Origin: an uncultured Clostridium sp.
GTDB taxonomy: Bacteria; Bacillota; Clostridia; Lachnospirales; Lachnospiraceae
DNA: 64,000 nucleotides
NCBI GenBank assembly: GCA_947178445.1
Contig: CAMWYJ010000003.1
Location: 1-64,000 of the forward strand
Direction of reading: 5' to 3'
The first letter of the stretch is position 1, and every line of letters begins with the position of its first letter. This document shows, in pieces, positions 38,012 to 44,173 of the stretch. The notes beneath the pieces were generated by a model that saw nothing but the letters and a program-made list of their open reading frames with translations, had not been told where the DNA came from and did no database searches. The position numbers and the translations under genes are program-made.

Positions 38012-38051
38012 AAAGAAACCAGCTGGTACATATGTGCCAGCTGGTTTCTTT
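38012..38051. terminator. Long bidirectional terminator at the end of the ATP synthase operon
   Basis: The arms 38012-38030 (AAAGAAACCAGCTGGTACA) and 38033-38051 pair over 19 bases with a single G-T, so the real loop is the central few bases. A-rich and T-rich ends make it work in both directions, ending both the XRE gene and atpC. Confidence 0.85.
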
Positions 38052-38463
38052 AAGAAATATATTTATCCTTACCCTGCAATCTTGCCATTGCTCTTGCAAG
38101 AGAAGCACGTGATACATGATATTCCATAATACTTTGCTTTTGCTGCAGCTGTTCCCTTGCACGTTCGGCTGCCGCCTGGGCACGGAATGCATCTATCTCC
38201 TCTGGGGCCTCTGCCGAATAGACTAATACCTCCACCGCATTATGGCTTACCTTTAACAATCCATCCGAAACAATGGCAACACGATATTTCTGTTCTCCCG
38301 GAATCCGAAACCGTATTTCACCAACTTCAATGGCAGTTGTCATCTGTTCATGATTTGCCATAACCGCCATCTCGCCGTCATATCCCGGAAACACAATAAT
38401 CTCACATTCCCCATCATAAAATACTCTGTCACACGCAATTATTTTTAAAGAAAAAGTTTTCAT
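38050..38463 (-). CDS. atpC: ATP synthase F1 subunit epsilon
   Basis: A 137-aa subunit. The beta-sandwich domain is at residues 1-85 (VFPGYDGEMAVMANHEQMTTAIEVG) and the C-terminal helical hairpin that can block rotation at about 90-137. Last gene of the operon, 20 bases after atpD. The stop falls within the arm of the terminator hairpin. Confidence 0.95.
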   Translation of the reverse strand: MKTFSLKIIACDRVFYDGECEIIVFPGYDGEMAVMANHEQMTTAIEVGEIRFRIPGEQKYRVAIVSDGLLKVSHNAVEVLVYSAEAPEEIDAFRAQAAAERAREQLQQKQSIMEYHVSRASLARAMARLQGKDKYIS

Positions 38464-38483
38464 TCCTTATACCTCTTTTGCTA

Positions 38484-40836
<2,353 letters not shown>

Positions 40837-40838
40837 AT

Positions 40839-42638
40839 CTATCTCTCCTGATTTTTAAATTGGTTACAAACCTCCACTATTGCTTCTCTCGTATCATCAT
40901 CCAAATTTTTAGATGATTCAATCTGGCTAATCAGATCAGAATGGTTGCTCTCAAAATCCTTTAGCAAATCCATTCGGAACTTTTTCACCTCACCGATTGG
41001 CAGATCACTGAATATGTGGGCATTCGCCGCCACTAAAGTGATAACCTGTTCTGCCATAGAAAACGGTCTGCCAAGAGGCTGTTTTAAAAGCTCCATTAAA
41101 GAACGTCCATGGTCAAGCTGTTTTTTTGTATTCTCATCAAGGTCAGAAGAAAACTGGGTAAACACTTCCATTTCACGGTACTGCGCCAAATCAATACGAA
41201 TACTTCCGGCTGCTTTCTTTGTTGCCTTTGTCTGTGCAGCACCACCTACACGGGATACCGACAAACCAACATTAACCGCCGGTCTCTGTCCTGCATTAAA
41301 AAGCTCGCTCTCCAGATAAATCTGACCATCTGTAATCGAGATTACATTTGTTGGGATATATGCGGATACATCTCCCGCCTGTGTCTCAATAATTGGAAGC
41401 GCCGTAATCGAGCCGCCGCCTGCCTCTGTAGTCAGACGGGATGAACGCTCCAACAGTCTGGAATGCAGATAGAATACATCTCCCGGATATGCCTCACGCC
41501 CCGGAGAACGCTCAAGCAGCAGCGAAATTGCACGGTAAGCCACCGCATGCTTGGACAAATCATCATATACGATCAAAACATCCTTTCCCTGATACATGAA
41601 ATACTCTGCAAGTGCTGTTCCGGAATATGGTGCAATATATTGAAGCGATGCTGGATCAGATGCCGTTGCTGATACGATAATCGTATAATCCATTGCATCA
41701 CCCTTCTTTAAATTGTTTACAAATTTTGCAATCGTAGATGCTTTCTGCCCGATTGCAACATATACACAGATTACATCCTTACCCTTCTGGTTTAAAATAG
41801 TATCCATTACAATAGAGGTTTTACCTGTCTGGCGGTCACCGATAATAAGCTCACGCTGTCCACGACCAATTGGGAACATGGAATCAATGGAAAGAATACC
41901 AGTCTCCAATGGAACAGATACGGACTTACGGTCGACAATACTTGGCGCCGGATTTTCAATCGGGCGGTATCCGTCTGCTGCAATTTCACCAAGCCCGTCA
42001 ATCGGTGCACCCAATGCATTCACAATTCTTCCCTTAAAGTTTTCACCGACTGGTATGCCAGCCATCTTACCGGTACGAACCACACGGCTTCCCTCATGAA
42101 TCTCTGTGTCACGTCCAAATAAAATGACACCAATCTCATCCCTGCGCACATCCTGTACCATTCCCTTTATGCCACAGTCAAATATAACAATCTCGCCATA
42201 GCAGGCATGGTCAATGCCATCCACATTTACAATACCGTCACCAACCCAGTTCACGATACCAATCTCTTTACTTTTTGCCTCTAGCTCAAAATCTTCAATA
42301 TTACTTTTGAGAATAGAGATAATATTTTCTTCACTGAAGTTTATTCCAGAAATCTTCTTCGTAACGGCACTCTTAAGCTGTTCAATTCTCCCCTGTTCAC
42401 TCCAGTCATACTCCTTTGTTCCAACACGTAAAATAAAACCGCTCTTTAAGGATGCGTCCTCTTTTAAGGAAATCTCTATCTCCTCATTGTGAAATTCCTT
42501 TGCCAGAAACTTACGAATCCCTGCCAATTGTTCGTCACTTGGTGCTGTTACATAGACTAGCTCTGCATGCTGCAGTAAATCCCTGGAATTTCCTGTATTA
42601 CGCAAATCCTGCGCATGATCCGTTATTGCCTGTGTCAC
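40839..42638 (-). CDS. atpA: ATP synthase F1 subunit alpha with an N-terminal delta-like domain
   Basis: A 599-aa protein, about 95 longer than normal alpha (about 505). From residue 100 on it is a complete alpha subunit: N-terminal helix, WVGDGIV, Walker A GDRQTGKT (267-274) and YREMEVFTQFSSDL. Residues 27-95 resemble the C-terminal half of the delta subunit (LVYVTAPSDEQLAGIRKFL, then an acidic stretch and SLKSGFILRVGTKEYDWS). No separate atpH exists between atpF and this gene. The start is GTG overlapping the atpF stop (GTGA), exactly where atpH would start. I infer a fusion that replaces delta, perhaps joining alpha to the b-stalk. Confidence 0.93.
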   Translation of the reverse strand: MTQAITDHAQDLRNTGNSRDLLQHAELVYVTAPSDEQLAGIRKFLAKEFHNEEIEISLKEDASLKSGFILRVGTKEYDWSEQGRIEQLKSAVTKKISGINFSEENIISILKSNIEDFELEAKSKEIGIVNWVGDGIVNVDGIDHACYGEIVIFDCGIKGMVQDVRRDEIGVILFGRDTEIHEGSRVVRTGKMAGIPVGENFKGRIVNALGAPIDGLGEIAADGYRPIENPAPSIVDRKSVSVPLETGILSIDSMFPIGRGQRELIIGDRQTGKTSIVMDTILNQKGKDVICVYVAIGQKASTIAKFVNNLKKGDAMDYTIIVSATASDPASLQYIAPYSGTALAEYFMYQGKDVLIVYDDLSKHAVAYRAISLLLERSPGREAYPGDVFYLHSRLLERSSRLTTEAGGGSITALPIIETQAGDVSAYIPTNVISITDGQIYLESELFNAGQRPAVNVGLSVSRVGGAAQTKATKKAAGSIRIDLAQYREMEVFTQFSSDLDENTKKQLDHGRSLMELLKQPLGRPFSMAEQVITLVAANAHIFSDLPIGEVKKFRMDLLKDFESNHSDLISQIESSKNLDDDTREAIVEVCNQFKNQER

Positions 42639-43123
42639 GATTCCTCACCTGCTTTGTCTAAAAATTCATTATATAAAGACGCATTCATCTCTATACTACT
42701 CTGCGCTCCTACTACCTTTGTCGCTGCATTTATTACCATATCAGCGATTTCTTTCTCCGCTTTCTTGATAATCTGCTTCTTTTGAACCTCTGCTTCTGCT
42801 GCTGCATCAGCCTTGATCTGATTCGCCTCTTTTCTCGCACCATCCACAATCTTCTGGTACTCTTTATCGGCATCCTTCCTAGCCTGCTGCAATGTCTGTT
42901 TCTTCTCTTCCTCAATGTCTGCTATCGAACCGGTATATTGAGCTTTCATTTCGTCTGCTTCTGCCTGCTTTGCTGCTGCCTCTTCAAACTGCCTGTCTGC
43001 CTCTTCCTGTCTCGCAGCAATAATCTTTTGTATCGGTTGGAAAAGAAACCGTTTCATTGCAATATATAGCACCAGAAGGTTAACAACGATAAAAAATAAA
43101 TTAGCTGCACTAATATTAAGCAT
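42635..43123 (-). CDS. atpF: ATP synthase F0 subunit b
   Basis: A 162-aa peripheral stalk subunit: one N-terminal membrane helix (residues 8-24), then a long charged coiled coil (EEAAAKQAEADEMKAQ, ARKDADKEYQKIV) and a C-terminal helix. Its stop overlaps the GTG of the fused alpha gene, so the two are translationally coupled. Confidence 0.95.
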   Translation of the reverse strand: MLNISAANLFFIVVNLLVLYIAMKRFLFQPIQKIIAARQEEADRQFEEAAAKQAEADEMKAQYTGSIADIEEEKKQTLQQARKDADKEYQKIVDGARKEANQIKADAAAEAEVQKKQIIKKAEKEIADMVINAATKVVGAQSSIEMNASLYNEFLDKAGEES

Positions 43124-43145
43124 GCTACTAACCTGCCTTTCTCTG

Positions 43146-43370
43146 TTATTTTAACATTACGATAATCATCAAAGCGATAACGAAACCGTAAATAGCCGTT
43201 GCCTCTGCAAGCGCACAACCAAGAATCAGGGTTGTACGGATCTTACCATCTGCCTCTGGCTGTCTGGCTACTGCCTCTGTTGCCTTACCGGTTGCGATAC
43301 CGATACCAATACCTGCTCCCATTGCTCCCAAAACTGCAATACCTGCTCCAATTGCGATTAATGTTCCCAT
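43146..43370 (-). CDS. atpE: ATP synthase F0 subunit c
   Basis: A 74-aa hairpin of two helices joined by the polar loop [10 protein letters not shown]. The ion-binding glutamate lies in [10 protein letters not shown]. Compared with the sodium-type Ilyobacter protein (IGQG...AESTGIY) the glutamine is Ile and the serine is Ala, although Thr and Tyr are kept. This argues for proton coupling, but weakly. ATG at 43370 has AAGGAGATCTATT before it; 15 codons upstream are not conserved. Confidence 0.94.
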
Positions 43371-43462
43371 AATAGATCTCCTTTTCTTTTCATCATTTTT
43401 CAACGCATTTTCCATTTAAAATCTGTAAATTCTGTGTTCGCATCAAGCAACTTAATATTATA

Positions 43463-44173
43463 CTAATCCTCAAGTGCTTCACTAATATACAATGAAGTCA
43501 AAAATACAAACACATATGCCTGAAGCAGTCCATCAAAAATGTCAAAATACAGGCTGAATACTGCCGGCAAAAAGACCGGGACAACCATCTTAATCAATTC
43601 CATAATAACGAACGCTCCCAACACATTACCAAAAAGCCGCATACAAAGTGATAACGGTCTGGTAAATACTTCAAGGATATTAATCGGTGTCACAATAGCA
43701 ATTGGCTTGGTAAACTTACGAAGCCATTTTTTCACACCATGATGATAAATACCTGCCGCCTCCACTAAAATGATACTCATCAAGGCCAAAGCAATTGTAA
43801 CGGTTAAATCCTTTGTTGGCGATTTGAAACCAAACAATCCAATAATATTGGCAAAACCGATATAAATCAAAACGGTTGTAAGATATGGAACATATGCTCC
43901 ACCTTCCGGTCCAATCATGCCTTCCACCAAACCGGTTAATTTAGTGACAATCAGCTCTGCCACCGCCTGACGCCTGCTGATATGATGAATCTTCAAATCC
44001 CTTGTGAGAATAAACGCTGTAAGTATCAGTACTGCCATGATAATCCACGTCACCACAACAGACTCCGCTATATCAATTCCACCAAAAAGAGGGATTGTGA
44101 AGACGGTCTCACATTCCAGCTCCTCCATCAGACGCTTTGCCAGTGAATCCAAATAATCATCTCCTTCTCTCAT
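43463..44173 (-). CDS. atpB: ATP synthase F0 subunit a
   Basis: The 236-aa membrane subunit that forms the ion half-channels. Five to six helices are present; PLSLCMRLFGNVLG holds the essential arginine and LLQAYVFVFLTSLYISEAL is the conserved last helix. First gene of the operon B-E-F-A-G-D-C, without the I/Z gene. The start is not certain: AAGGAG lies inside the frame before a TTG at codon 8, while no ribosome site precedes the first ATG. Confidence 0.94.
   Translation of the reverse strand: MREGDDYLDSLAKRLMEELECETVFTIPLFGGIDIAESVVVTWIIMAVLILTAFILTRDLKIHHISRRQAVAELIVTKLTGLVEGMIGPEGGAYVPYLTTVLIYIGFANIIGLFGFKSPTKDLTVTIALALMSIILVEAAGIYHHGVKKWLRKFTKPIAIVTPINILEVFTRPLSLCMRLFGNVLGAFVIMELIKMVVPVFLPAVFSLYFDIFDGLLQAYVFVFLTSLYISEALED

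Follow-up and report, generated by a model that had tools for sequence, protein, structure and literature searches.

Natural fusion of the delta C-terminal domain to the alpha subunit in a Lachnospiraceae ATP synthase operon, and its possible consequence for peripheral stalk number

In an ordinary F-type ATP synthase, the single delta subunit is placed with its N-terminal domain (NTD) on the head axis, and its C-terminal domain (CTD) grips subunit b. Textbook F-ATP synthases have a single peripheral stalk, and the c-ring alone sets their H+/ATP ratio. A 2025 study of the Bacillus PS3 enzyme departed from this plan by design: the delta NTD was deleted and the CTD was fused to alpha (PMC12229609). 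The engineered enzyme was described there as carrying up to three stalks, with averages of approximately two stalks by SDS-PAGE and approximately two a subunits, and its H+/ATP ratio was given as 5.8 versus 3.0; particles with three stalks were rare on the cryo-EM grids (PMC12229609). Structures of the engineered fusion are 9JC1, which appears under data availability, and 9JC2 (PMC12229609). The Discussion of the same paper names natural proteins of this kind (delta-deltaN-alpha), citing Acidaminococcus fermentans and UniProt entries G4Q3K6 and A0A1I2C5T3, and the architecture itself is therefore already in print. By the account of that Discussion, these genes have the architecture of the locus described below. 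In the N-ATPases, delta is described as absent or joined to b (PMC11738941). Our literature search on delta-alpha fusions (including those of Lachnospiraceae) and on multistalk ATP synthases, with subscription journals mostly outside its scope, returned PMC12229609 as the sole relevant paper. Within that scope, which makes for a weak negative, no description was found of repeated NTD loss, of a whole delta fused to alpha, or of a chain joining b, the delta CTD, and alpha.

The locus examined here lies in a 64,000-nucleotide stretch of DNA (the window) from an uncultured Clostridium sp. of the Lachnospiraceae. Its ATP synthase operon occupies positions 38050 to 44173 of the minus strand, and its seven genes follow the order B-E-F-A-G-D-C, as the initial annotation had read it. 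A full F-type set of a, c, b, alpha, gamma, beta, and epsilon was matched; atpH is absent from the operon by gene order and by a Pfam scan of the encoded proteins. Upstream of atpA lie atpB (subunit a, 236 aa; 43463 to 44173; PF00119, 4e-43), atpE (subunit c; 43146 to 43415; PF00137, 3.1e-20), and atpF (subunit b, 162 aa; 42635 to 43123; PF00430, 2.1e-15), all on the minus strand, with atpB and atpF present as one gene each. Downstream, on the same strand, are atpG (gamma; 39886 to 40836; PF00231, 1.8e-91), atpD (beta; 38484 to 39935 as the longest frame; PF00006, 2.4e-76), in which translation more likely starts at the inner ATG of MENIGKI, and atpC (epsilon; 38050 to 38463), which keeps both of its domains (PF02823, 1.4e-19; PF00401, 1.2e-11). 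The P-loops of alpha and beta, the arginine motif of alpha, and the RLFGN motif of a are present. Subunit b is of normal length, and its sole match above cut-off is PF00430, so b is not fused to delta, in contrast to the b-delta fusions of N-ATPases or actinobacteria. The ion-site residues of c are I/L/E/A/T/Y, versus Q/V/E/T/T/Y in the Na+ set. Under the ProAD rule, a single missing Na+ residue denotes an H+ type (PMC11738941), and on this basis the window enzyme is predicted to be H+ type.

The 599-aa AtpA (40839 to 42638, minus strand) is a fusion of the delta CTD to a complete alpha subunit; the delta NTD has been lost, and the operon has no separate delta. Its GTG start overlaps the atpF stop as GTGA, at the position where atpH would be expected to begin, and ahead of alpha stand 98 residues, close to the 95 or so first proposed. 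Residues 1 to 24 (42567 to 42638) form a remnant that aligns with the first residues of the whole delta of the sister locus (L061/L036). Residues 25 to 98 (42345 to 42566) are the delta (OSCP) CTD and linker, in frame, with a PF00213 match and PDB profile matches to delta chains and to 9jc1_I. Residues 99 to 599 (40842 to 42344) are alpha with its N-terminal helix retained (TIGR00962, 3.8e-225, residues 103 to 597). In a scan of the whole protein, PF00213 matched residues 12 to 91 with profile positions 92 to 171 of 172 (36.3 bits, with the cut-off at 22.3; E = 7.8e-9). The OSCP profile search proposed in the initial annotation was run on residues 1 to 98 alone and matched residues 9 to 91 with profile positions 89 to 171 of 172 (E = 4.2e-10). 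Both the presence of the C-terminal half of delta in the extension and the absence of the N-terminal half, as originally read, are borne out by these alignments, in which PF00213 matches only from approximately position 89 onward. TIGR01145 matched residues 16 to 90 (4e-8); this score is under the whole-protein cut-off of that model, as expected for half a protein. Relative to its nearest relative, the fused domain has a dN/dS of 0.05, with dS near saturation, which indicates purifying selection. Across all seven subunits, dN/dS against the same relative (L061) is 0.04 to 0.11.

Comparison with structures placed the window protein next to the engineered enzyme. The best PDB match of the fused-domain profile was the engineered chain 9jc1_I (E = 1.6e-7), in an alignment that runs through the linker into alpha. 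When the whole window protein was used, 9jc1_I ranked fourth and, among the 60 chains listed, was unique in starting inside the extension (residue 31). The span that runs from the CTD's conserved Arg to the first alpha Gly is 42 residues in the window protein and 41 in the engineered chain, which should be long enough for the CTD to occupy its usual place on alpha; the same span is 37 to 60 residues in 63 CTD-only fusions and 39 to 50 in 61 whole-delta fusions. Both proteins carry the delta CTD on the N terminus of alpha, with the NTD gone and no separate delta. They differ in that the PS3 fusion was designed and has had the C-terminal domain of epsilon removed, whereas the window enzyme is natural, has a whole epsilon, and begins with the 24-residue delta remnant. 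The stalk counts come from the engineered fusion. The likeness to the N-ATPases is weaker. They, too, have no separate delta, and the C-terminal stretch of their b subunit weakly resembles the delta CTD (TIGR03321 positions 190 to 245 versus the window domain, E = 0.011); however, their gene order is different, and the window alpha, at 615.7 bits, falls below the 750.5-bit cut-off of the N-ATPase alpha model, which places it outside that group.

Whether relatives share the fusion had been raised as a check, and it proved common to many. A search with residues 1 to 98 matched 25 of 60 relatives at E values up to 0.001, and the fetched regions showed three states: a separate whole delta, a whole delta-alpha fusion (672 to 682 aa), and a CTD-alpha fusion (579 to 601 aa). 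A contig scan of the genomes yielded 76 loci. The first 72 (L061 to L132) comprise 49 whole-delta fusions, 22 CTD-only fusions, and one contig-end fragment (L129), and the remaining four are separate deltas. Isolates with the whole-delta fusion include Pseudobutyrivibrio ruminis DSM 9787 (L077, 671 aa) and P. xylanivorans MZ8. Like the window, the whole-delta fusions of P. ruminis DSM 9787 and L061 have the same operon order and the c site I/L/E/A/T/Y; unlike it, they keep the entire delta, including the NTD. In a survey of 299 Lachnospiraceae genomes from 298 genera, 166 matched the fused-domain profile, with at least 44 CTD-only fusions (41 recognized from their frame length, to which G348, G113, and G134, a fragment at a contig end, were added) and at least 20 whole-delta fusions, as judged from frame lengths and inspection. 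Outside the family, 71 of 398 genomes matched, and among the matches listed, five had frames of 605 to 622 aa; four of these five were examined, and all four are CTD-alpha fusions. Fusions of this kind outside the family include one in G371, a single-contig genome. Extension lengths form two classes, of 71 to 114 and 168 to 195 residues, once three rows misassigned by length are set aside (L148, L156, and L196, whole-delta by length and CTD-only fusions on inspection). Separate deltas are all full size (30 of 30, 166 to 183 aa; none is short). Fragments (L058 and L202) and duplicate sequences were omitted from the comparisons.

Several loci in the survey have unusual forms. L138 and L111 (Eubacterium uniforme ATCC 35992) encode a 756-aa whole-delta-alpha fusion whose C terminus is extended by a charged tail of approximately 80 residues. 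On the 10.9-kb contig of L058 (G030:C15), two opposed partial atp sets appear broken, and contig C37 of that genome carries an intact set. In eight genomes (L157 to L164), a separate delta and alpha share a reading frame, with a stop codon plus a short gap between them. These eight long frames with an inner stop had been considered as recoded fusions and proved to be separate same-frame genes; such pairs are a possible forerunner of fusion through stop loss.

In the seven-subunit tree (75 rows), L061 is the fully supported sister of the window. L061 encodes a 672-aa protein with the whole delta fused, and the window protein is 73 residues shorter, in the deleted stretch. In the DNA alignment, an in-frame stretch of 219 bases of the relative is missing from the window, and in the relative the sequences on its two sides both contain CAGCAG; at this divergence, the repeat is suggestive only as a trace of the deletion. 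The CTD-only status requires 11 changes on the 75-row tree, at least 8 of them forced by well-supported branches, and 21 to 22 changes on the larger alpha-only trees (some drawn without L172, L177, L195, and L206, which are three long branches and one fragment), 4 to 10 of them forced; the support values behind these counts come from quick searches. Near the window, the alignments and the sister relationship give the order as whole fusion first and NTD loss later. Elsewhere, the same order is probable, with the exception that for some deep CTD-only rows the branches at the base of the tree do not settle which state came first. In the alpha tree, three out-of-family fusions (L248 to L250) cluster, fully supported, with Na+-type rows, and because of this grouping the fusion likely arose more than once. 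The same tree places L247 (G609, from another family of the class) with the CTD-only row L190 of the Lachnospiraceae, again with full support, which suggests transfer of the operon.

The whole-delta fusions were used to examine the NTD before its loss. The NTD had been expected to relax once fused, and no such relaxation was seen. In ten close pairs of whole-delta fusions, NTD dN/dS was 0.04 to 0.20, and NTD divergence did not exceed that of separate deltas when alpha distance was the same (compared without L148 and L156). Fusion alone therefore does not free the NTD, which retains a function until it is lost outright. The initial annotation had ascribed the absence of the NTD to the covalent joining of alpha; that account is incomplete, given that whole-delta fusions are equally joined and keep a constrained NTD.

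One genome of the survey, G113, carries the fusion one step further. A single 778-aa chain (L156:1355-3691, also L251:3156-5492) consists of b (PF00430, residues 9 to 137), the delta CTD (PF00213, to residue 249), and alpha. The G113 operon is complete apart from this joining, and a search of the genome found no other b above cut-off. The chain rests on this one genome, with no replicate. If it is built uncut, the joining of b to alpha with no other b in the genome would give three b subunits per head, making G113 the sharpest test case.

The window genome (3.66 Mb, 165 contigs, 90.25% complete) has a second ATP synthase operon (L035, G000:C5:20052-28122). This operon is complete, with a, c, b, delta, alpha, gamma, beta, and epsilon, and its c site (Q/V/E/T/T/Y) gives it the appearance of a Na+-type enzyme. 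A PF00213 search of the genome at E values up to 10 returned two matches, the fused CTD and the full-length 178-aa delta of this operon on contig C5, and no separate NTD. The claim that the delta gene is missing therefore holds for the window operon and fails for the genome. The initial annotation had regarded an intact atpH elsewhere in the genome as evidence against the fusion; one is present, but the test is too strict, since relatives manage without any other OSCP match. In at least 17 of the at least 44 CTD-only genomes, at least 14 of which are at least 90% complete, the sole PF00213 match is the NTD-less fusion itself, as established from match counts, E values, and direct scans of the proteins. 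The direct scans matched the CTD in all 17 fused proteins, 14 of them over the Pfam cut-off, with L175, L187, and L200 just below it. The window genome also contains Rnf genes. A partnership of the fused enzyme with an energy-converting hydrogenase, as proposed for P. ruminis, was considered and found no support here: this 90% complete genome has Rnf and gave no matches to PF00346 or PF00374 (NiFe large subunit, including the Ech type).

Taken together, the data suggest a working model in which the window enzyme is an H+-type F-ATP synthase with the stalk-docking half of delta now part of alpha. The fused CTD would grip the end of the b dimer as it does in delta, and a covalent link would replace the NTD in attaching it to the head; that the CTD does its delta job on b in this way is very probable. 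Each head has three alphas, and most likely each of them would present a dock. With three alphas and the axial NTD, which normally permits one stalk, absent, additional b2-a stalks could dock; that more than one does so, with a correspondingly higher H+/ATP ratio, we consider slightly favored. In evolution, the whole delta would have been fused to alpha first and the NTD then deleted many times, in the window branch after the split from L061. We assign this combined explanation (CTD-alpha fusion, covalent dock, several stalks, and fusion followed by NTD loss) a probability of roughly 0.6. The fuller proposition is evenly balanced: that a natural multistalk enzyme, in which each rotor has two or three b2-a stalks and H+/ATP is well above c/3, works beside an ordinary Na+ enzyme and evolved repeatedly by the two steps of the engineering study (delta-alpha fusion and NTD removal), with b also joined in one lineage. 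The "simplified peripheral stalk" of the initial annotation is probably wrong, since alpha is present three times and the dock is multiplied accordingly, and since the engineered equivalent assembled up to three stalks (PMC12229609).

The main competitor to a multistalk enzyme is one with a single stalk, in which one of the three CTDs binds the b dimer because assembly of b, a, and c allows only one, and in which covalent joining has simply replaced the NTD. The single atpB and atpF of the operon are in keeping with this, as are the constraint on the NTD in whole-delta fusions, which fits one asymmetric NTD per head, and the rarity of three-stalk particles of the engineered enzyme (PMC12229609). 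Yet that fusion, with like architecture and a near-equal linker, averaged approximately two stalks and two a subunits (PMC12229609), and the G113 chain, unless cut, supplies at least three b subunits per head; we regard a single stalk as possible but the less likely outcome. A quite different objection is that the chain is not kept whole, with internal initiation or cleavage yielding an ordinary alpha and a free CTD, one per enzyme. Cleavage of alpha does occur in other systems, and in 38 of 73 fusion genes, from other genomes, an ATG, GTG, or TTG lies no more than 12 codons from the alpha start. However, the other 35 have no start codon near that point, which shows that internal starts lack conservation; the window AtpA has no in-frame ATG, GTG, or TTG between residues 38 and 129, and a free CTD would be without an anchor. 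This alternative is improbable.

Supply in trans, in which the atpH of the second operon would provide the lost NTD or else an entire delta, draws on the full-length delta of that operon and on similar deltas in many fusion-bearing relatives. It is largely refuted already and appears a little less probable still: the at least 17 CTD-only genomes with no other PF00213 match (at least 14 of which reach 90% completeness) indicate that a separate atpH is not needed, the E values of their fused CTDs in direct scans are similar to those of the single matches, and the search of the window genome at E values up to 10 found no separate NTD. That the fusion is an assembly error or a decaying gene might be suspected from the fragmented state of the genome (165 contigs, 90.25% complete) and from the intact whole delta of the nearest relative. 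The architecture recurs, however, in dozens of other assemblies, including the single-contig G371 from outside the family, and the low dN/dS of all seven subunits (0.04 to 0.11 versus L061), together with the P-loops and the Arg motif of subunit a, speaks against decay; an artefact is very hard to credit.

If natural fusions carry more stalks, as is slightly favored here, the H+/ATP ratio can evolve through added a subunits, and calculated ATP yields would have to be revised for those butyrate-forming bacteria of gut and rumen that have an enzyme of this kind. The Lachnospiraceae offer what the engineering study did not have, namely close relatives with a separate delta, a whole-delta fusion, and a CTD-only fusion, the last reached several times. 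P. ruminis DSM 9787 is a culturable comparator with the whole-delta fusion. For its membranes, both H+-dependent and Na+-dependent ATP synthase activities are reported (PMC11026938), and the H+-dependent activity would be that of the fused enzyme.
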